Numbered from the stretch's first letter, positions 6,010 to 27,692 are shown. The stretch: 27,692 nt of DNA from a virus (IMGVR_UViG_3300048800_000081:1-27692), one strand, 5' to 3'. Numbers and translations are program-made. Notes: generated by a model from the sequence alone, not told the origin.

Positions 6010-6090
6010 ATGCCTTACATCCGCCATTCGCTCCACATTTTTTAACGATCCCGTTAAGAAAAAGCGAAAGGCGGGTGATTCGTATAGGTC

Positions 6091-6184
6091 TTTCGTCTTT
6101 CACGTTCGCTTCCTCTCCCACCGGGAGAGGATTGAGGTGAGGGAGTTCCCCCACCCTGCCCTCCCCCGGTGGGAGAGGGTTCTG
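6091..6184 (-). repeat. Dispersed GC-rich palindromic repeat, family A, copy 1
   Basis: Read on the minus strand this is the full repeat: AGAACCCTCTCCC, a GGGGGAGGG arm, GGGTGGGGGA, CTCCCTCACCTCAATCC, then GAGAGGAAGCGAACGTGAAA. The same unit recurs on the plus strand at 24265-24354 and 25792-25883, with shortened copies at 19966-20008, 26365-26422 and 27592-27630. It contains two palindromic cores and ends in a purine-rich SD-like stretch and GTG. Here it lies in the leader of the leftward operon. Its GTG opens a 33-codon frame (6103 down to 6002) that I regard as unproven. Confidence 0.85.
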
Positions 6185-12145: not shown

Positions 12146-13481
12146 ATGTTGATTGAATACCGGAGCGTTGAGGCGTTGGTGCCTTATGCTCGGAACAGCC
12201 GGACGCATAGTGATGCGCAGGTTGCGCAGATCATGGCGGCGATGGTTGAGTTTGGGTGGACGAATCCGGTGCTGGCGGATGGCGATGGGATTGTCGCGGG
12301 GCACGGGCGGGTGATGGCGGCGTCCAGGTTGTATGAGCAGGGCGAGACGATACGGTTGCCTGGTGGTGATGAGGTTCCTGACGGGATGGTGCCAGTGATC
12401 GATTGCACCGGATGGTCGGTAGTGCAGCGCAAGGCTTATATCATCGCGGACAATCGGCTGGCTGAAAATGCCGGATGGGATTCGGCGATGCTGGCGCTGG
12501 ATATCGGCGACCTGCGCGAGTGCGGGTTCGATGTCGGGTTGACCGGTTTCAACGATGCGGATCTGAATGCGCTGATCGCGCCGAAAGGAAATGCAGGGCT
12601 GACCGATCCGGACGACGTGCCGGAAGTACAGCCCGATCCGATCAGTAGGCTGGGCGACTTGTGGCTGATGGGCAAGCATCGGTTGATGTGTGGCAGCAGC
12701 ACCGAAGCTGAAACGGTAGAAAGGCTGCGGGGGGGGGGCGATACCAATCCTGATGGTGACCGACCCGCCTTACGGGGTGAGCTACGATGCAAGCTGGCGC
12801 CTTGCAGCGGGCATAAATAAATCATGGCAAACCCGCGCTGAGGGGAAGGTACTAAACGATGATCGGGTAGATTGGTCAGAGGCATGGGCATTATTTCCCG
12901 GCGATGTATTTTATTGCTGGCATGCCGACCGGCATGCCAGCGCGGTGCAAGCGTCGATGGAATCCGCTGGGTTTGAAATCCGCTCGCAAATCATATGGGC
13001 AAAAAATTCACTGGTAATGGGCCGAGGACATTATCACTGGCAACATGAGCCTTGCTGGTACGCCGTGAGGAAGTCCGCGACTGGGCATTGGGTCGGTGAC
13101 CGGAAGCAGTCAACACTTTGGCAAATCGCAAACATGCATCGAACACAAGGCGATGTGGACGACGGCAAGACTAGTCATTCCACGCAAAAGCCGATCGAGT
13201 GCATGAAACGCCCCATCGAAAACAACAGCAGTCCCGGCGATAGTGTTTACGACCCGTTCGTTGGCAGCGGCACCACGATCATCGCTGCCGAAATGATGGG
13301 GCGTTGTTGCTATGCCATCGAATTGAACCCAGCGTATGTGGATGTTTGCGTGCGCCGCTGGCAAAACTTCACCGGCCAGCAGGCCACGCTCGAATCTGAT
13401 GGGCGCACTTTTGATGAGATATCGGCAGAAAGGATTCAGGCAGCACGATGCGAGGCAGAACACCAACTCCAACCAAGCTGA
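12146..13481 (+). pseudogene. ParB-domain DNA methyltransferase, frameshifted at a G10 tract
   Basis: Two frames make one protein. Frame 1 (12146-12820) carries a ParB/sulfiredoxin-like domain (DGDGIVAGHGRVMAASRLYE) and the linker ISRLGDLWLMGKHRLMCGSS. Frame 2 (12753-13481) begins at MVTDPPYGV (motif IV, DPPY) and ends with DPFVGSGTTIIAAEMMGR (motif I, SAM binding). This is a beta-class N6-adenine or N4-cytosine methyltransferase. The break is at ten consecutive G residues (12729-12738); nine would restore one frame of 444 codons (LRGGAIPILMVTDPPYGV). It could be a phase-OFF state, ribosomal frameshifting, a fixed mutation or a sequencing error. The intact enzyme would probably modify phage or host DNA. 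Its end overlaps the small terminase gene by 34 bp. Confidence 0.88.
12729..12738. repeat. G10 homopolymer causing the methyltransferase frameshift
   Basis: Ten G residues follow gctgc. The upstream frame reads CTG CGG GGG GGG GGC GAT; the downstream frame required by the DPPY motif is one base on. Deleting one G joins them. Poly-G tracts of this length inside methyltransferase genes are a classical phase-variation switch in other bacteria. Confidence 0.92.
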
Positions 13482-20115: not shown

Positions 20116-20976
20116 ATGAATCCACAAATCGAGGCACTCGCCAACAAGATGATCGAGGCCATCAAGGGCCATGTGGCGCGCGCCGCAGCCGTGCTGTCGG
20201 AACGGCTGACCGCGCTTGAAAAGCGCATCGGCGAGATCCCGGCAGGGCCGAAAGGCGAACCCGGACAGCATGGAGAAAAAGGCGCGGACGGGTTGCCCGG
20301 CAAAGATGGTATCGATGGCAAAGATGGATTGCCCGGTCAAGATGGAGAAAAAAGCGTGGATGGGTTGCCCGGCAAGGATGGGCTGAACGGTAAGGACGGC
20401 GAATCGGTGCATCCGGATACCGTCAAGGTATGGCTGTTCGAGATGGTCGACAAGGCTATCGCCGCATTGCCCAAGACCAAGGATGGCGAGAACGGCCGCG
20501 ACGCGCTGGCGCTGGATATTCTTCCGATGATCGACGAGACGAAAAGCTATCCGCGCGGCACGTTCGCAGAGCATCGCGGCGGCATCATCCGTGCGCTGCG
20601 CAACACCGATCCGGTGACCGATGGATTGGCCAAGGCTGGCTGGCTCGTCTGCATGAACGGCATCACCGCCGAGATCGAAGAAACGCTCGACGAAGGCCGC
20701 ACCATCAAGCGCACCACGCACTACACCGACGGGCGCGAACTGGTGCGCGAGATCAAGACCAGCGCGATATTGTATCGCGGCATCTGGCGCGAGGCTGCGT
20801 TCGACGCAGGCGACGTTACAACCTGGGGCGGCTCGGCCTGGCACTGTCAGGAGAAGACCAGCGACAAGCCGGGCACCTCGGCAGCATGGAAGCTCATGGT
20901 CAAAGAAGGCGCGCGCGGCAAGGATTTCAGGCCCAATGCCGAACCCGCCGTCGGCGCGCCGGTGCATCTGAAATGA
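20116..20976 (+). CDS. Collagen-like virion protein with a carbohydrate-binding-type C-terminus
   Basis: The 286-residue protein has an N-terminal helix with coiled-coil character (about 1-40), then Gly-X-Y repeats (GPKGEPGQHGEKGADGLPGK and onward, about 44-96) that form trimeric collagen-like fibres. A globular part follows. The end (YRGIWREAAFDAGDVTTWGG, AWHCQEKTSDKPG) resembles small CBM5/12-type chitin-binding modules: aromatic residues, 'aGDvvtw.G..w.c'. It may be a fibre or decoration protein binding surface sugars. AAGGAAC precedes the ATG. It ends in an ATGA overlap with the connector gene. Confidence 0.82.
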   Translation: MNPQIEALANKMIEAIKGHVARAAAVLSERLTALEKRIGEIPAGPKGEPGQHGEKGADGLPGKDGIDGKDGLPGQDGEKSVDGLPGKDGLNGKDGESVHPDTVKVWLFEMVDKAIAALPKTKDGENGRDALALDILPMIDETKSYPRGTFAEHRGGIIRALRNTDPVTDGLAKAGWLVCMNGITAEIEETLDEGRTIKRTTHYTDGRELVREIKTSAILYRGIWREAAFDAGDVTTWGGSAWHCQEKTSDKPGTSAAWKLMVKEGARGKDFRPNAEPAVGAPVHLK

Positions 20977-21650
20977 AATTTATACTGGAACGCACCGTCG
21001 ATCCTGACATTGAACCAATTTTATTGGCCGAGATGAAAGCACATCTCAGGGTCACCGATACCGACAACGATACCCTTATCACCGGGCTGATCACCGGCGC
21101 GCGCGAATGGGTTGAGGACTACACCGGCCGCGCGCTGATCGACCAGACCTGGCGGCTCACGCTGGCCGGCAAATATCACGGCTACATCGGCGGCGATAGC
21201 GTCGGCGGATACCGTCCGGGATATTACACCTACGGTGCCGGCACGCGCGACATGGAATACTGGATACGCGGCGGCGAGATACTGTTGCGCAAAGCGCCGG
21301 CGCTCTCGCTGATCTCGTTCAAGTCCGTGGACAACGCCGGGGTCGAGACCGCCATCGACGCGGCTTATTATCAATTGCGCGAGATCGATTCAAAATGGCC
21401 GCGCATCGTGCCGCTGAACGGCGCGACCTGGCCCGCCTGCAGCGACCTGCGCATCGTTTACCGCGCCGGCTTCGCCGACCGCGATTCCAGCCCGCAACAA
21501 GACGGGGCAGCCGTTCCGTTCAGGTTCAAGCAAGCGATGAAACTATGGGCCGAAGCGAACTACGATCGCGATGATAAAACCATGCAGCTTTACCTGGACA
21601 CCGCCGAACTGCTGATCAAATCGGAACGATCGGAAATGGGAATGGCTTGA
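20973..21650 (+). CDS. Head-tail connector protein (gp6-like)
   Basis: The frame is open from 20430, but the ATG at 20973 overlaps the upstream TGA (ATGA) and begins MKFILERTVDPDIEPILLAE. The sequence EMKAHLRVTDTDNDTLITGL, ITGAREWVEDYTGRALIDQT is the classical start of HK97 gp6-like/DNA-packaging connector proteins, and the C-terminal helix (FRFKQAMKLWAEANYDRDD) also fits. It joins the portal to the tail. At 225 residues it carries an extra central Gly/Tyr-rich loop (GGYRPGYYTYGAGTRDM). The -35 of a new promoter overlaps its stop. Confidence 0.88.
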   Translation: MKFILERTVDPDIEPILLAEMKAHLRVTDTDNDTLITGLITGAREWVEDYTGRALIDQTWRLTLAGKYHGYIGGDSVGGYRPGYYTYGAGTRDMEYWIRGGEILLRKAPALSLISFKSVDNAGVETAIDAAYYQLREIDSKWPRIVPLNGATWPACSDLRIVYRAGFADRDSSPQQDGAAVPFRFKQAMKLWAEANYDRDDKTMQLYLDTAELLIKSERSEMGMA

Positions 21651-21676
21651 CAACCTATCCCAAAATGGGATAGTAT
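21647..21676 (+). promoter_or_regulatory. Independent promoter with a perfect palindromic operator
   Basis: TTGACA (21647-21652) and TAGTAT (21671-21676) are 18 bp apart. Between and overlapping them lies a perfect operator, CTATCCCA (21655-21662), AAA, TGGGATAG (21666-21673). It is unrelated to the AGCAAATTGCT operators. It should drive the small genes at 21732-22656 and be repressed by a protein bound across the spacer; the mini-HTH protein at 22486-22656 is the obvious candidate. Confidence 0.85.
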
Positions 21677-21731
21677 CCTCCTTGAGCAATAGCATTGGGC
21701 TGTTGCAGTTCTGAAGAAGGATGGAAATTAA

Positions 21732-21911
21732 ATGTCAACTCAGAATGAAAAAATGAAAAATAATCTTCTGGATATCGCAGAAGCTATTGACAAATTATTT
21801 GATCAAAACTTCGATGAAATATTAATCAATGAATATGGTGAGATAGTTGATTATCTATTACTAACCGCAAATGCTATAGATCAAAAATTTGTTGTGGCTG
21901 CGGCGCGATGA
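21732..21911 (+). CDS. Small acidic hypothetical protein (59 aa)
   Basis: MSTQNEKMKNNLLDIAEAID, then KLFDQNFDEILINEYGEIVD, is a helical acidic protein with AT-rich codons unlike the neighbouring head genes, suggesting recent acquisition. It is the first gene after the promoter at 21647-21676 and ends in an ATGA overlap with the next gene. No family is recognised. Confidence 0.68.
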   Translation: MSTQNEKMKNNLLDIAEAIDKLFDQNFDEILINEYGEIVDYLLLTANAIDQKFVVAAAR

Positions 21912-22156
21912 ACACTGAAAATAAAACGAAGAATGATGAACCGCAGTCCCTCTCGACTGCTGAGTTGGACGCTGAGATTAAACACTATCAATGTTTAGTT
22001 GAATTTGCAGAGCGTGAAGTGAATGCGGGTAATGAAAGAATTAGAGCTTACCTTGAAAGCTATGCGAATCATCGTGACTCATTGCAAATACGGCGTAATG
22101 CAATGGTGGCTAACGTAGAGTTGAGCACCAGCCAACAGCGCGAGGAGAAACCATGA
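21908..22156 (+). CDS. Small coiled-coil hypothetical protein (82 aa)
   Basis: The middle (STAELDAEIKHYQCLVEFAE, REVNAGNERIRAYLESYANH) is a charged helix likely to form a coiled coil. No catalytic motif is seen. ATGA overlaps join it to both neighbours (21908-21911 and 22153-22156), so it is translated as part of the accessory operon. The function is unknown. Confidence 0.7.
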   Translation: MNTENKTKNDEPQSLSTAELDAEIKHYQCLVEFAEREVNAGNERIRAYLESYANHRDSLQIRRNAMVANVELSTSQQREEKP

Positions 22157-22476
22157 GTAAAACTAAAGAACCTATCACGCTGTTGGCTGTGCGCTCGAAC
22201 GCCGGGTTGGGCGAAGTTTATGCCATCCCCGACTTTTTACGCAACCCTGCAAACTTAGCAAAGGAAAGAAAAATGGAAAAAGCAGAACTGCAAGAATTAG
22301 TACATGCCGCCCTTGGGGAACTCATCGACAGAATTGAATTGTGTGGAGCATCTGAAAAACTTACCCACGCTGTGACGCTTGCCGCTGACCTACGGCAGGC
22401 TGTTGGCAACCAATGGAACACACCGGATGAGTATGCAAAGAAAAGAGTGCTGGCGGTGTTGCCCAACGTAAAGTAG
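22153..22476 (+). CDS. Hypothetical protein with a probable internal start (107 aa)
   Basis: The first 40 residues (MSKTKEPITLLAVRSNAGLG) start at an ATGA overlap. A second in-frame ATG at 22273 has AAAGGAAAG before it and would give a 67-residue helical protein (MEKAELQELVHAALGELIDR, then TLAADLRQAVGNQWN). The shorter form looks like a complete small protein, so either two genes are fused in frame or two products are made. No function is recognised. Confidence 0.65.
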   Translation: MSKTKEPITLLAVRSNAGLGEVYAIPDFLRNPANLAKERKMEKAELQELVHAALGELIDRIELCGASEKLTHAVTLAADLRQAVGNQWNTPDEYAKKRVLAVLPNVK

Positions 22477-22485
22477 ACCCCTGTA

Positions 22486-22656
22486 ATGGAAGGATCGGAA
22501 CTCAAAGCATTACGCAAAAAACTTAATCTGTCGCTCGCCCAGGCAAGCAGGCAGGTTGAGGTTTCCGTCTCGACTTGGTGCCGGTGGGAATCTGGCAAAC
22601 AGAAAATTCCAGAGGGTGCGATGAAACTATTTAAGCTGCTGAACAAAATCAAATAA
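22486..22656 (+). CDS. Mini HTH (XRE-type) regulator (56 aa)
   Basis: The whole protein is one helix-turn-helix: SELKALRKKLNLSLAQASRQ, VEVSVSTWCRWESGKQKIPE, then GAMKLFKLLNKIK. The recognition region is SVSTWCRWESGKQKIP. It is the last gene of the accessory operon, 9 bp after the previous stop and before a terminator. Autoregulation through the palindrome at 21655-21673 is inferred from proximity and operon structure. An SD is weak. Confidence 0.78.
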   Translation: MEGSELKALRKKLNLSLAQASRQVEVSVSTWCRWESGKQKIPEGAMKLFKLLNKIK

Positions 22657-22678
22657 CAACAGCAACACCACACACAAG

Positions 22679-22704
22679 GCCGTCCAGAATTGGGCGGCTT
22701 TTTT
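22679..22704 (+). terminator. Intrinsic terminator of the accessory operon
   Basis: GCCGTCC (22679-22685) pairs with GGGCGGC (22692-22698, one G-U pair) around AGAATT, followed by six T residues (22699-22704). It closes the unit that starts at the promoter 21647-21676. Confidence 0.88.
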
Positions 22705-23190: not shown

Positions 23191-23937
23191 ATGTATATAA
23201 ATCCCAAATATTTGATCCTTCGGCGATTGCATGACCGCTTCAGCGAAGTCATCCCTGAATGGCAGGGCAAGACCGCCGTGCTGATCGGCGCCGGCGCCAG
23301 CCTCACCGCGATGCAGGTCGCCCAGGTGCATGCCGCGCATGTTGGCGGCAATGTCATGGCCGTCGCGATCAACGACTGTTATTTATGGTGTGACTGGGCG
23401 GACGTGCATTACGCGGCGGATGCCAAGTGGCACAAGTGGCACACCGAAGGACTGGACAAACCGCTGCTCAGGATGACCGCCGCGCAGGTGCGCGAAGCAT
23501 GGGCAACCTTCGCAGGGCAGAAATGCAGCATCCAGGACAGCATGGACGGCATCGCGGATGACACAGTGCACATCCTGCGCAACAAGAGCTATCCGAACCA
23601 CGCGCACGGACTATCGCGCGATCCGCAGGCATTGGGCACCGGCTGGCACAGCGGCTTCCAGGCGCTGAACCTCGCGATACTGGCAGGGGCGAAGACCATC
23701 ATCCTGCTGGGCTTCGATGGCAAGCCGTCGCAGGAAGGCCGCACGCATTTTTTCGGCGAGCACCCAAGCCCGACCAACCCGGCGGTCTTCGAACAGATCC
23801 GCCGTTCTTTTTCGGCGGCGGAAAACGAGATCAAGGAATTGGGCGTGCGCGTGATCAACTGCTCGCCGGGAAGTGCGATCGATTCGTTTGAGAAGATGGA
23901 ATTGGGTGAAGCGCTTAGAAGCAGACGTAAGACGTAA
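23191..23937 (+). CDS. DUF115/MptE-like or sialyltransferase-like protein (248 aa)
   Basis: The Rossmann-type opening WQGKTAVLIGAGASLTAMQV is followed by AVAINDCYLWCDWADVHYAA and, later, GWHSGFQALNLAILAGAKTI, ILLGFDGKP and FFGEHPSPTN. This layout occurs in the DUF115 (MptE-like) proteins and in CST-like bacterial sialyltransferases. Donor and acceptor cannot be told. TAAGGTAG lies before the ATG. It begins a run of sugar- and methyl-transfer genes in the virion region; virion or surface glycan modification is inferred. Confidence 0.75.
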   Translation: MYINPKYLILRRLHDRFSEVIPEWQGKTAVLIGAGASLTAMQVAQVHAAHVGGNVMAVAINDCYLWCDWADVHYAADAKWHKWHTEGLDKPLLRMTAAQVREAWATFAGQKCSIQDSMDGIADDTVHILRNKSYPNHAHGLSRDPQALGTGWHSGFQALNLAILAGAKTIILLGFDGKPSQEGRTHFFGEHPSPTNPAVFEQIRRSFSAAENEIKELGVRVINCSPGSAIDSFEKMELGEALRSRRKT

Positions 23938-23958
23938 GTTGTTAAAAGGAAGAAAATC

Positions 23959-24249
23959 ATGGCAGAGATTAAAAAAATAGACATCAAAGAATTTAGGGAA
24001 CTCGGATTTTTACAGGAAATAAACCGCCTTTTTCTTCACCCTTTGGGCATGGCGCTAGAGGTGATACTTGAAGATGATGGAACGGAAAAACTTGGTGGCA
24101 TTTGGGACTATCGAGACGACCCAGAAGGAATGATTTACGGAGAAATGGACGACACAAGTAAATCTAAAATTGCTTTCTTCAAAGAATTTGCCGAAAGAAA
24201 GCACGCGGAGAGATTAAAGCGGCTTGGGTACATCATTCAAGAACCATAA
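23959..24249 (+). CDS. Conserved small phage protein (96 aa)
   Basis: IDIKEFRELGFLQEINRLFL, HPLGMALEVILEDDGTEKLG and GIWDYRDDPEGMIYG are strongly patterned and recur in many phages as an unnamed protein. AAGGAAG precedes the ATG. It is soluble and acidic, with a helical end (FFKEFAERKHAERLKRLGYI). Codon use is more AT-rich than the flanking glycan genes. The function is unknown. Confidence 0.78.
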   Translation: MAEIKKIDIKEFRELGFLQEINRLFLHPLGMALEVILEDDGTEKLGGIWDYRDDPEGMIYGEMDDTSKSKIAFFKEFAERKHAERLKRLGYIIQEP

Positions 24250-24264
24250 TGACGCACGGGGAGC

Positions 24265-24354
24265 ACAACCCTCTCCCACCGGGGGAGGGCAGGGTAGGGG
24301 AGCGCTCCCTCACCTCAATCCTCTCCCGTAAGGAGAGGAAGCAAACGTGAAAGG
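24265..24354 (+). repeat. Dispersed palindromic repeat, family A, full copy before the GT9-like gene
   Basis: Full-length copy with both palindromic cores, ending in GAGAGGAAGCAAACGTGAAA. The terminal GTG (24347) opens a 6-codon frame whose TGA (24365-24367) overlaps the TTG start of the GT9-like gene (TTGA, 24364-24367). The repeat therefore provides the only visible ribosome-binding sequence for that gene. It fills the gap between 24250 and 24363. Confidence 0.88.
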
Positions 24355-24363
24355 CATCACAAG

Positions 24364-25140
24364 TTGACGAAACGAATACGCGGCGGCAGCGGGCTGGGCG
24401 ATTCGATCTACCTGCGCCCGCTGGTCGAGCAATTGATCGCGGACGGCGAACAGGTGACGGTCTGCTCCAATTATCCCGATGTGTTTATCGGCACCGGCGC
24501 GACGGTCGAGCCATTTGGGCGCAACAATATCCAGGTGCTGGCGCATTACACGGCAGGAAAGAGCGATCCGGCCACCAACCAGTGGCAGGACATCTGCCGC
24601 AGCGCGCGCATGACTGCCGAGCTGCGCTTCGCTTGGATCGTGCGCAACACCGCGTTGGCGGACAAACTGCGCACCCGCGCCTTCGGGCGCAAGATCATCC
24701 TGGTGCATGGCGGGCGCGCGCCGATGGGGCGCACTGACGGCTTCGGCGCGGAGTTGCTGCCGGACGCGCAGGCTTTTGACGCCGTGCTGCGCGAGTTGGG
24801 CGATTGCATGCTGGTGCGCATCGGCAATGGCGCGGAACTTTATCCGCTGCCCACCGAGATCAACCTGAACGGCAGCACCTCGGTATCCGACGTGCTCGAT
24901 GTAGGCAGGATCTGCGACGGCGTGGTCGCGCAATGCTCGTTCGCGATACCGCTGGCCGAAGCGTTCGACAAGCCGCTGCTGATCGTATGGGCCGCGCGCG
25001 GACTGGTTGCACGCGAAGCCTATGTCCGGCAGATCACCCCGCAAAAGGTATTGAGCAAGCCATCCTCGACGTTCGTGATGGATGACTGGCCGATGGAACA
25101 GATACAGGAGACAGCACGGCAATGGCATCCCGGTTTATAA
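24364..25140 (+). CDS. GT9-like glycosyltransferase (heptosyltransferase-like)
   Basis: The 258-residue protein begins at TTG 24364: MTKRIRGGSGLGDSIYLRPL then VEQLIADGEQVTVCSNYPDV, the typical first Rossmann motif of ADP-heptose:LPS heptosyltransferase-like (GT9) proteins. The second half (GRICDGVVAQCSFAIPLAEA, FDKPLLIVWAARG) has the donor-binding character of the GT-B fold. It is shorter than usual heptosyltransferases (about 340), so it may be a minimal form. Its start depends on the preceding repeat. It overlaps the GT29-like gene by 19 bp. Confidence 0.78.
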   Translation: MTKRIRGGSGLGDSIYLRPLVEQLIADGEQVTVCSNYPDVFIGTGATVEPFGRNNIQVLAHYTAGKSDPATNQWQDICRSARMTAELRFAWIVRNTALADKLRTRAFGRKIILVHGGRAPMGRTDGFGAELLPDAQAFDAVLRELGDCMLVRIGNGAELYPLPTEINLNGSTSVSDVLDVGRICDGVVAQCSFAIPLAEAFDKPLLIVWAARGLVAREAYVRQITPQKVLSKPSSTFVMDDWPMEQIQETARQWHPGL

Positions 25141-25877
25141 ATTTCGAACAAGCTGCTGAAAGCCTGCGCGGCAAGTCGATTGCTGTGGTCGGCAGCGCGC
25201 CGTCGGTGCTGGACAATGCGCCGGGCTTCATCGATTCCCACGACATCGTGGTGAGGGTGAACAACTACAAGACCGGCGCGGCGCAGGGCACGCTCTGCGA
25301 CGTACATTATAGTTTTTATGGTACGAGCATCCGCAAGCGCGCCGAAGACCTGCAAGCGGACGGCGTGCAACTGTGTATGTGCAAATGTCCGAACGCCAGG
25401 GCGCTGGAATCGGCATGGCATGAGGCCAACAACAAGATCAACGGCATCGACTTTCGCTACATCTACCACAACCGCAAGGACTGGTGGTTCACCGATACAT
25501 TTATCCCGTCAGTGGAGCATTTTCTGAGGGGATTCGAGCTGCTCGGCAAGCACATCCCGACCACCGGATTCTCCGCCATCCTCGACGTGCTGGCGTGCGA
25601 GCCCGGCAGCGTGTACCTGACCGGCTTCGATTTCTTCACCTCCGGGCTGCACAACGTGGATGAGGCATGGAAGCCGGGCAACCCGAACGACCCGATCTGC
25701 CACCGCCCGGATCTGGAGATGGCATGGCTGCGCAAGAATCTGCACAAACATCCTGTCTCGTTTGATAAAAAACTGGGCGATATGCTGGTGCAGAACCCTC
25801 TCCCACCGGGGGAGGGCAGGGTGGGGGAGCGCTCCCTCACCTCAATCCTCTCCCGAGGGGAGAGGAGGCAAACGTGA
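25122..25877 (+). CDS. GT29-like (sialyltransferase-type) glycosyltransferase with a repeat-encoded tail
   Basis: LRGKSIAVVGSAPSVLDNAP, FIDSHDIVVRVNNYKTG and GTLCDVHYSFYG match the sialyl motif-like core of GT29 and related bacterial transferases. Later GFSAILDVLACEPGSVYLTG and FDFFTSGLHN are equivalent to the C-terminal motif. The real donor sugar is unknown. The last ~27 residues (from NPLPPGEGRVGE) are translated from the dispersed repeat at 25792-25883. The stop is TGA at 25875-25877, overlapping the next gene's GTG. The tail is probably not needed for catalysis. Confidence 0.8.
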   Translation: MASRFINFEQAAESLRGKSIAVVGSAPSVLDNAPGFIDSHDIVVRVNNYKTGAAQGTLCDVHYSFYGTSIRKRAEDLQADGVQLCMCKCPNARALESAWHEANNKINGIDFRYIYHNRKDWWFTDTFIPSVEHFLRGFELLGKHIPTTGFSAILDVLACEPGSVYLTGFDFFTSGLHNVDEAWKPGNPNDPICHRPDLEMAWLRKNLHKHPVSFDKKLGDMLVQNPLPPGEGRVGERSLTSILSRGERRQT

Positions 25878-25883
25878 AAGACG
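25792..25883 (+). repeat. Dispersed palindromic repeat, family A, full copy at a gene junction
   Basis: Full copy with both cores and the end GAGAGGAGGCAAACGTGAAAG. It encodes the C-terminal tail and stop of the upstream gene and provides the SD-like AGGAGG plus the GTG start and first codons (V/M-K-D) of the downstream methyltransferase. Confidence 0.9.
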
Positions 25884-26428
25884 GAAACCCTTTATTTGAA
25901 TACCATGGCGAACTGTTTCCGGAATACCTGAAACACGGTAACGCGATGCAATTCATCGCACCGGCGGCTCTGCAATTCTGCAAGGGCAACGGCCTCGATG
26001 TCGGCTGCAGCCAATGGCCGTTGCCTGGCGCTGCCGGGCATGACCTGAAAAATGGTACCGATGCAACCAACCTGCCGCCGGGCGAATGGGACTACATCTT
26101 TAGCTCGCATTGCCTCGAGCATGTGCTCGACCCGGTCACGGTGCTGGAGCACTGGAAGACGCGGTTGGTCAAGGGCGGCACACTGTTCCTGTATTTGCCG
26201 CACCCGGACATGACCTACTGGCGGCCGCAGCATTGCCGCAAGCATTTGCACCTGTTCTGGCCCGATGATGTCGCCGAGATGCTGCGCGCCCTCGGATTTG
26301 TAAACATCATCCACAGCGAGCGCGATCTCGCGTGGAGTTTTGCTGTCGTCGCGTTCAATGGAGCAGAACCCTCTCCCACCGGGGGAGGGCAGGGTGGGGG
26401 AGCAAACGTGAAAGACGAAAAACAATGA
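25874..26428 (+). CDS. SAM-dependent methyltransferase, start and tail from repeats (184 aa)
   Basis: A class I methyltransferase pattern is visible: GNGLDVGCSQWPLPGAAGHD (motif I), WDYIFSSHCLEHVLDPVTVL (motif IV), and HWKTRLVKGGTLFLYLPHPD. It probably methylates a sugar or other small acceptor of the cassette. The GTG at 25874, its AGGAGG site and codons 1-3 come from the repeat 25792-25883. The last ~20 residues (EPSPTGGGQGGGAN then VKDEKQ) come from the next repeat, and its TGA overlaps the next ATG (ATGA). The core is somewhat short for the family. Confidence 0.8.
   Translation: MKDGNPLFEYHGELFPEYLKHGNAMQFIAPAALQFCKGNGLDVGCSQWPLPGAAGHDLKNGTDATNLPPGEWDYIFSSHCLEHVLDPVTVLEHWKTRLVKGGTLFLYLPHPDMTYWRPQHCRKHLHLFWPDDVAEMLRALGFVNIIHSERDLAWSFAVVAFNGAEPSPTGGGQGGGANVKDEKQ
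26365..26422 (+). repeat. Dispersed palindromic repeat, family A, shortened copy at a gene junction
   Basis: First core present, second core deleted, right end GAGCAAACGTGAAAGACGAAA kept apart from the core only by GGGGGA. It is in frame with the upstream methyltransferase and forms its tail. The next ATG (26425) lies just beyond it. Confidence 0.88.
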
Positions 26429-26979
26429 CGAACATGCACGACAAGATCGTCGCGCAGCACGGCCAGAAAATGCTGCGCAAGAGCGCAATGAATATTCGCG
26501 GTGGTGCTGGCGTATTCGAGCGCGTGCTGTCCGGCAAAGGGTATCGCACCGCACTGGAGATCGGCACCTATCGCGGCGTCTCTGCCGCAGAGATGTCGCA
26601 ATACGTCGAGCGCGTGATCACCATCGACCTGCGCTACGGCAAGCTGGAATCGAATGGCGACAGCTTCGATCGCGCCATCTTCTGGTACGAACTGGACGCG
26701 AACAACATCGAATTGCAACTGGTGGACGACGACATCGAAAAGAAAGCGCTGATCGATGTGCTGGACTTCGATTTCGCCTTCATCGACGGCGCGCATACCG
26801 GCGGCGCTATTGTGCGGGATTTCGAGATGGTGAAGCGCTGCGGAACGGTTCTGATTCACGACTACGACGACAACGGGCGCGGTCGGTTATTCAATGAGGC
26901 TTTCGATTTCGTCAACTCACTCCCGAAGGAACAAGTGCAAATATTCGATATCTTCGCGCTCTGGACAGCGCCATGCTGA
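26425..26979 (+). CDS. SAM-dependent methyltransferase (Methyltransf_24 type), first paralogue
   Basis: The frame is open from 26332, but the ATG at 26425 overlaps the upstream TGA (ATGA) and excludes repeat sequence. Motifs are YRTALEIGTYRGVSAAEMSQ (motif I), RVITIDL (end of strand 2) and DFDFAFIDGAHTGGAIVRDF with CGTVLIHDYDDNG (motif IV and post). This family often methylates sugars or small molecules. The 184-residue length is usual. The next gene overlaps by 7 bp and encodes a related enzyme. Confidence 0.82.
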   Translation: MTNMHDKIVAQHGQKMLRKSAMNIRGGAGVFERVLSGKGYRTALEIGTYRGVSAAEMSQYVERVITIDLRYGKLESNGDSFDRAIFWYELDANNIELQLVDDDIEKKALIDVLDFDFAFIDGAHTGGAIVRDFEMVKRCGTVLIHDYDDNGRGRLFNEAFDFVNSLPKEQVQIFDIFALWTAPC

Positions 26980-27650
26980 ACGAGCGCATCCGGGCGAACG
27001 GCGATGAGGAGGCCATTGTCGGCGAGATCACCTTCGGGCCGTTTTCCAGCCCGCTGATGAAGGCGATCTTCAAGCGCTTCGGCAAGAAAGCGTTCGGGCG
27101 GTCGAGCGCGTGCGCTGAGTTCGAGAGCTTTCTTCACGCCATCGCTGACGAGCGAAGCGCGGAATTCGTCATGAAACGAGTGGGCAAGAAACCTCTCGGA
27201 GATTGCTGCCTTGAGATCGGCACCTTCCACGGTATCACCGCGATCATCCTGTCGCAGTTTTTCGACAAGGTGATCTGCGTCAGCGTTGACGAAATGCCGG
27301 TGATGAAGCGCGAGATTGTGGATTATCTCGGCATCAAGAATATCGCGTTCTACGATGCGAAGGACAACAAGGACAAGGCCGCGTTCATCAACGCCGCGAA
27401 GTTCGATTTCTGCTATCAGGACGGCGACCACACGCACGATACTTATAGCGATTTCGATCTGGTGAAGCGCTGCGGGCGCGTGCTGTTCCACGAATTTTGG
27501 CCGCTGCAAGCGCCGGTCTGGAACCTGGTCAACAGCCTGCCGCAGGACGAAGTTATTCATGCGCAATTCGATTGCCTCGCCTATTGGGAGAAGAACCCTC
27601 TCCCATCGGGGGAGGGCAGGGTGGGGGAGATAGGGTCGATCAATGGATAG
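26973..27650 (+). CDS. SAM-dependent methyltransferase (Methyltransf_24 type), second paralogue
   Basis: The C-terminal two thirds parallel the preceding gene: CCLEIGTFHGITAIILSQFF, DKVICVSVDE, KFDFCYQDGDHTHDTYSDFD and LVKRCGRVLFHEFWPL. An extra N-terminal ~70 residues (EITFGPFSSPLMKAIFKRFG) have no recognised domain. The pair probably arose by duplication or joint capture. The C-terminus (NPLPSGEGRVGEIGSING) is repeat-encoded, ending at TAG 27648-27650, which overlaps the next ATG. The substrate is unknown. Confidence 0.82.
   Translation: MLNERIRANGDEEAIVGEITFGPFSSPLMKAIFKRFGKKAFGRSSACAEFESFLHAIADERSAEFVMKRVGKKPLGDCCLEIGTFHGITAIILSQFFDKVICVSVDEMPVMKREIVDYLGIKNIAFYDAKDNKDKAAFINAAKFDFCYQDGDHTHDTYSDFDLVKRCGRVLFHEFWPLQAPVWNLVNSLPQDEVIHAQFDCLAYWEKNPLPSGEGRVGEIGSING
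27592..27630 (+). repeat. Dispersed palindromic repeat, family A, shortened copy
   Basis: AGAACCCTCTCCCATCGGG through GGGTGGGGGAGA, first core only. It is in frame at the end of the second methyltransferase and adds Pro/Gly-rich residues. It is the last copy in the window and repeats the gene-end position seen at 25792 and 26365. Confidence 0.88.
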
Positions 27651-27692
27651 GCTGATCAAGCGCCTAGACGCAACGCCTGACGCCGACCTGAT
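27643..27692 (+). CDS. Start of a further gene, cut by the window edge
   Basis: ATG 27643 overlaps the upstream TAG and opens MDRLIKRLDATPDADL, still open at the end. Too little is visible to assign a family. The overlapping start suggests it continues the same operon. Confidence 0.5.
   Translation, partial: MDRLIKRLDATPDADL

Follow-up and report, generated by a model that had tools for sequence, protein, structure and literature searches.

Head-tail junction island of glycosyltransferase and methyltransferase genes in uncultured siphophages: a probable pathway for decorating the phage particle

Why would a phage carry, in the midst of the genes for its own particle, a row of enzymes that transfer sugars and methyl groups? 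The question is raised by a virus record of IMG/VR (IMGVR_UViG_3300048800_000081, 27,692 bases, referred to here as the window), in which a cassette of six enzyme open reading frames (ORFs), all on the plus strand, occupies positions 23191-27650. The answer that we favor, and that we consider reasonably probable from sequence comparison and structure models, is that the cassette encodes a late, cytoplasmic phage pathway that would attach a methylated glycan to a protein of the virion. Documentation of virion glycosylation in tailed phages was found in the literature mainly from mycobacteriophages; our reading, if true, would suggest that glycosylation of particles is widespread, antigen-like in its variation, and dependent on enzyme families not previously tied to virions.

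The layout of the locus became clear from a longer contig (L001), near-identical to the window, that shows the sequence past its right edge, where a 414-aa double methyltransferase gene is followed by a head completion gene (Pfam Phage_HCP), an HK97-gp10-like gene and tail-completion genes. Given this order, and the position of the gp6-like connector to the left (Table 1), the cassette lies between head-tail connector and head-completion gene. An earlier note on this DNA had described six enzymes in a row, glycosyltransferases and three methyltransferases belonging to the phage, inside the virion gene region. The placement, the phage ownership and the two kinds of enzyme all agree with what we found, and the six ORFs are real and correctly positioned, although the second does not directly follow the first, from which it is set off by a small gene and a repeat element, and the methyltransferase genes number four, since a further one (MT4) starts just before the window ends and is seen in full on L001. 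The start of MT2 is most likely the ATGA overlap at 26425 rather than a GTG upstream.

Relatives of the cassette were gathered by IMG/VR scans with GT9-like and GT29-like profiles, a GTDB genome scan, a portal-anchored scan and an MT1-anchored scan, and the loci, many of them contig fragments, were read with iterated hidden Markov models of cassette and virion genes, with duplicates removed. A GT9-like gene followed by a GT29-like gene was present in 58 non-redundant loci, with DUF115 in 49, at least one cassette methyltransferase in 56, a recognized virion gene within 6.5 kb in 52 and a connector-type gene in 47, so that the set, which the earlier note had proposed to look for in other prophages, is no isolated case. 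The conserved order is DUF115-GT9-GT29-MT(s)-MT4, and the majority of the closest relatives of MT1, when it alone served as anchor, sit in the same cassette. In relatives without the insertions of the window the genes overlap, as gp6(-4)DUF115(-4)GT9(-20)GT29(-4 or -11)MT..MT4(-4 to -11)HCP, and they are therefore probably carried on one transcript with the late structural genes. Pairwise ratios of nonsynonymous to synonymous substitution (dN/dS) are mostly 0.01-0.2, i.e. under purifying selection, and this, together with recurrence of the GT9 and GT29 relatives in the same order, argues that the cassette is not due to chance. Bacterial REP-like repeats, which stand at gene junctions in the window lineage, might be taken as signs of a host glycan fragment acquired by chance and without function for the phage; we rejected this as extremely improbable on the grounds of the 58 loci, the gene overlaps and the dN/dS values, and moreover no other phage lineage among the fetched loci has the repeat, and among 300 genomes of the order to which the host of one locus (L075) belongs, the GT29-like gene occurs in L075's own genome only.

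Because conserved enzymes that add sugars and methyl groups are tied into the genes of the head-tail junction, the phage probably decorates its own particles. The soluble DUF115/GT42-like, GT9-like and GT29-like glycosyltransferases would build a short glycan from nucleotide-sugars of the host, on a virion protein and in the cytoplasm, while particles are being assembled, and up to four S-adenosylmethionine (SAM) methyltransferases would cap its sugars or methylate them. Between related phages the island is exchanged, with differing glycosyltransferase sets, as expected for a fast-changing surface trait. The virion acceptor and its identity, the identity of the sugars and the methylation of the glycan are parts that we infer, and late expression is suggested by gene position. 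One specific proposal, which we regard as speculative and unlikely, is that the glycan is made from donors of the lipopolysaccharide (LPS) inner core, with ADP-heptose serving the GT9-like enzyme and CMP-Kdo or another cytidine monophosphate (CMP)-nonulosonate serving the two sialyltransferase-fold enzymes, to give an LPS-core-like coat; since such donors are present in nearly every Gram-negative cell, the phage would need no nucleotide-sugar genes of its own.

The glycosyltransferase identities come from profiles and from two AlphaFold2 models, each built from an alignment of relatives, of the GT29-like (pLDDT 95.4) and GT9-like (pLDDT 96.1) proteins. The former aligns over 161 residues with a mammalian sialyltransferase (root-mean-square deviation 2.6) and matches Campylobacter jejuni CstII at a Z of about 10.9, so that the GT29-type assignment made earlier is borne out by fold, with a Pfam GT29 (PF00777) score of 18.0 bits that stays below the curated cut-off of 23. 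GT29 matches occur in 23 of the 32 members of its family; of the two candidates for the catalytic histidine, H165 is invariant in the family alignment and H182 is kept in at least 90% of members, and the final ~25 residues of the window protein derive from the repeat element. Among the matches of the GT9-like model, TibC (Z 13.4) follows those in Table 1, then three plant NDH-complex chains (12.4-12.6), while neither UDP-GlcNAc epimerases nor other GT-B enzymes exceed 9.8; the LPS heptosyltransferases WaaF/WaaC are among its top fold matches, and its GxGD motif marks the place at which WaaC has its catalytic aspartate. The window GT9-like protein has no match in Pfam, a GT9 match is found in 2 of 31 relatives (best E 3.5e-4), and the family profile found none among solved structures, which is why a fold model was needed. 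Placement in GT9 and GT29 thus rests on fold, with curated scores not reached, and we call both proteins "-like" only. For the DUF115 family, the region aligned with CstII ends at CstII residue 171, and this family and the GT29-like one are mutually related (hhalign 96%, E 4e-9). Conserved motifs are retained across each family.

How variable the locus is was seen in a portal-anchored sample chosen independently of the cassette, made up of 28 loci that could be followed from the portal as far as gp10/gp17. Half of these (14/28) hold a DUF115 island and span 1.9-8.6 kb over that interval, and the 14 without DUF115 span 1.2-2.1 kb, with one of 4.4 kb. Other ORFs of the DUF115-positive islands match GT2, GT8, GT9, GT-D and Glyco_trans_1_2, as well as FkbM and TylF methyltransferases, pyruvyl transferase and one radical SAM protein; in the control loci the matches are to Phage_connect_1 (13), tail tube (2), one HCP and one GT2. 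With such varied glycosyltransferase and sugar-modifying families, the locus is a variable glycan island, of which the window represents one allele. The collagen-like fiber, offered earlier as an example of an acceptor, is not supported as the particular one: its family is present in 10/14 phages with the island and 13/14 without, accompanies the portal, and includes several members nearly devoid of the Gly-X-Y repeat. Since the fiber does not track the cassette, we rejected it as a dedicated acceptor and regard it as no better a candidate than other virion proteins.

Outside this sample, cassette copies that look like prophages were found by the GTDB scan in three metagenome-assembled genomes (MAGs) of Betaproteobacteria and one of Anaerolineaceae, and a betaproteobacterial host for the window would fit these copies, without being proven by them; scanning genomes for the DUF115 protein by itself gave no match. 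An AT-rich, unrelated phage (L002) has GT9-GT29 and then three Methyltransf_24-type genes, directly after which comes an ORF read as a putative large terminase. Searched by tblastn against 50,697 cultured-phage records, the GT9-like, GT29-like and MT2 proteins had no match, in line with the earlier remark that a GT29-type fold is notable in a phage, yet GT29-like proteins are frequent among the uncultured siphophages of this lineage.

A reduced version of the cassette is nevertheless carried by the cultured Pseudomonas phages D3 and PAJU2, which makes the question directly testable. Both share with the window a head-tail region holding a DUF115 homologue, a GT9-like protein and an MT4 homologue, and differ from it in having a single methyltransferase and no GT29-like protein; in D3, the DUF115-type orf7 precedes the connector. 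The gene before the methyltransferase (PAJU2 ORF011, D3 orf12; PHROG 6804) aligns with the GT9-like profile over 200 columns (hhalign 96%, E 4.8e-9), and its homologues have been named GT9 by other depositors. We found no functional study of the D3/PAJU2 DUF115 gene, orf12 or the methyltransferase gene orf13 in the literature. PAJU2 ORF010, the DUF115 homologue (L239:5781-6350), was deposited as "structural protein", a label that, in the PAJU2 stretches read, it shares with the capsid, the major tail protein and ORF023 and with nothing else, which hints that ORF010 may be carried in the virion.

Several points weigh against particle glycosylation. The glycan, its acceptor and its donors are predicted from genes and models; the PAJU2 label may be without experimental basis; a search for virion genes outside the island that are specific to DUF115-positive phages found none; and in the window a promoter-like site, an inverted repeat and a terminator-like site lie between gp6 and the cassette, so that its expression may differ from that in relatives. 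Finally, LPS synthesis also uses GT9 and sialyltransferase-fold enzymes, and for this reason we keep as a tentative, rather unlikely alternative that the cassette modifies the host surface, altering LPS core or another surface glycan late or in the lysogen, and so blocking re-adsorption or superinfection. That WaaF/WaaC rank so high among the fold matches would suit this alternative, although TibC, a GT9 enzyme that glycosylates protein, is a nearly equal match. Sialyltransferase-fold enzymes use CMP-sugars, and CMP-Kdo is made by Gram-negative hosts, but the cassette is without a membrane protein. In support of this alternative, the window phage appears to be temperate, and the separate upstream promoter-like site could permit expression apart from the late genes; that the cassette genes of most relatives overlap those of the virion suggests instead late expression, and therefore silence in lysogens. 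It is because the cassette stands in the head-tail operon, its start and stop codons overlapping in relatives, that we favor modification of the virion over lysogenic surface conversion.

The methyltransferases bear on a further alternative. MT1, MT2 and MT4 score above their Pfam cut-offs (Methyltransf_23/24) and MT3 below, and the MT2/MT3 profile reaches solved O-methyltransferases. The Methyltransf_24-type profile also reaches a tRNA methyltransferase, as might be expected if the products acted on DNA, RNA or a small molecule, and the PAJU2 label could likewise mean that some members (DUF115) are structural parts with catalysis lost. We consider both improbable, given that the Pfam matches of the cassette proteins include no DNA-methyltransferase or base-hypermodification family, that the sugar-transfer folds are clear and the family motifs retained, and that the alternative islands are likewise rich in glycosyltransferases. 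As separate observations, MT4 (L001:11280-12524) holds, in frame and within coding sequence, PLSPPLEKGESLRGGQRSGGG, which resembles another repeat element, distinct from the first, and elsewhere in the window (12146-13481) two successive overlapping ORFs match parts of PHROG 498 (about 33-221 and 226-451), a 633-aa family annotated as DNA methyltransferase; the first also matches ParB-like families, and the two are possibly one split or frameshifted gene.

Insertions set the window lineage apart from its relatives. A 1.5-kb moron parts gp6 from DUF115, the small gene and repeat element part DUF115 from GT9, and repeat copies lengthen GT29, MT1 and MT3 at their 3' ends. Between connector and cassette (21647-22701) is an arrangement resembling an anti-CRISPR operon (acr-aca2-like), comprising a promoter-like sequence (TTGACA-16-GATAGT) with an exact 8-bp inverted repeat, CTATCCCA-AAA-TGGGATAG, at 21655-21673 (chance 0.03 in the window), small orphan ORFs that are candidate anti-CRISPRs, a helix-turn-helix (HTH) gene and a terminator-like site; in phage P7869 an annotated anti-CRISPR adjoins a GT9 gene. 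The REP-like palindromic element, AACCCTCTCCCRYCGGGGGAGGGCAGGGTRGGGGAG (its long form having a second hairpin), is present in six copies, all co-oriented with transcription and several read in frame at the 3' ends of genes; AACGTGAAAG follows four of them and at 25874 provides the GTG start of the next gene. No copy of the element turned up in the three Betaproteobacteria genomes with related prophages. At the window edge (51-223 and 183-1682), genes for tRNA-Ala(GGC) and tRNA-Glu(TTC) lie beside a PHROG 95 / DNA invertase-type integrase; this edge has the appearance of a prophage terminus at a tRNA gene, and the integrase is why the phage looks temperate.

Table 1. Features of the window in and around the cassette.
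Feature	Position	Strand	Evidence
Collagen-like fiber protein, conserved C-terminal domain	20116..20976	+	Pfam Collagen E 6.7e-9; PHROG 1289 and tail-fiber families
gp6-like head-tail connector, left border of island	21084..21650	+	PHROG 442 head-tail adaptor E 7e-11
Three small orphan ORFs	21732-21911, 21908-22156, 22153-22476
56-aa HTH	22486-22656		Pfam Aca2_YdiL 31.2 bits, cut-off 23.8
Terminator-like site	22676-22701
DUF115 / GT42-like sialyltransferase-superfamily protein	23191..23937	+	PHROG 4603 "alpha-2,3-sialyltransferase" E 1.3e-32; family profile to C. jejuni CstII E 4e-5
Small protein between DUF115 and GT9-like genes	23959..24249	+	PHROG 3954 E 6.5e-15
GT9-like glycosyltransferase, invariant GxGD motif	24364..25140	+	AlphaFold2 model, VIA-align Z 15.3 to Veillonella GT9, 15.0 to E. 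coli heptosyltransferase II
GT29/GT42-like glycosyltransferase	25122..25877	+	AlphaFold2 model, Z 13.2 to mammalian sialyltransferase; Pfam GT29 E 0.002
MT1, class I SAM methyltransferase	25874..26428	+	Pfam Methyltransf_23, 38.5 bits, above cut-off
MT2, Methyltransf_24 (O-methyltransferase type)	26425..26979	+	Pfam 31.8 bits, above cut-off
MT3, paralogue of MT2	26973..27650	+	Pfam Methyltransf_24, 21.0 bits, below cut-off
MT4 start, 414-aa double methyltransferase running off window	27643..27692	+	L001:11280-12524, Pfam Methyltransf_23 E 3.9e-23, two stretches
REP-like element copies	24267, 25791, 26365, 27593, 19964	+
REP-like element copy	6083-6184	-

Virion glycosylation by phage enzymes is already known. 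For Gram-negative siphophages we found no description of this set of enzymes at this locus in the literature, nor any paper on phage cassettes of heptosyltransferase and sialyltransferase. Among characterized enzymes, the GT9 heptosyltransferases WaaC, WaaF and TibC share fold and GxGD motif with the window's GT9-like protein, which is roughly 80-100 residues shorter and lacks a Pfam GT9 match, and ST3Gal1 and CstII (GT29/GT42) share their fold with its GT29-like protein (Z 13.2 and 10.9), which, unlike GT29 sialyltransferases, stays below the Pfam GT29 cut-off. O-antigen conversion cassettes of the gtrABC type likewise consist of glycosyltransferases borne by prophages, but the window cassette is sited among virion genes, draws on other families, and encodes no flippase-like protein, as a Kyte-Doolittle scan of all cassette enzymes found no strongly hydrophobic stretch. 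The nearest precedent is that of mycobacteriophages, described in PMC13313380 (citing Freeman et al. 2023), PMC11256854 and PMC11600133 (citing Freeman 2023), the last of which states that in cluster O the capsid and tail tube are modified by glycosyltransferases encoded in tandem next to an O-methyltransferase. The window differs in belonging to Gram-negative siphophages with a fixed locus at the head-tail junction and a predicted product, and, unlike the enzymes of that precedent, its GT9-like and GT29-like proteins are unmatched in the cultured-phage records; common to both are phage-encoded glycosyltransferases adjoining a gene for an O-methyltransferase.

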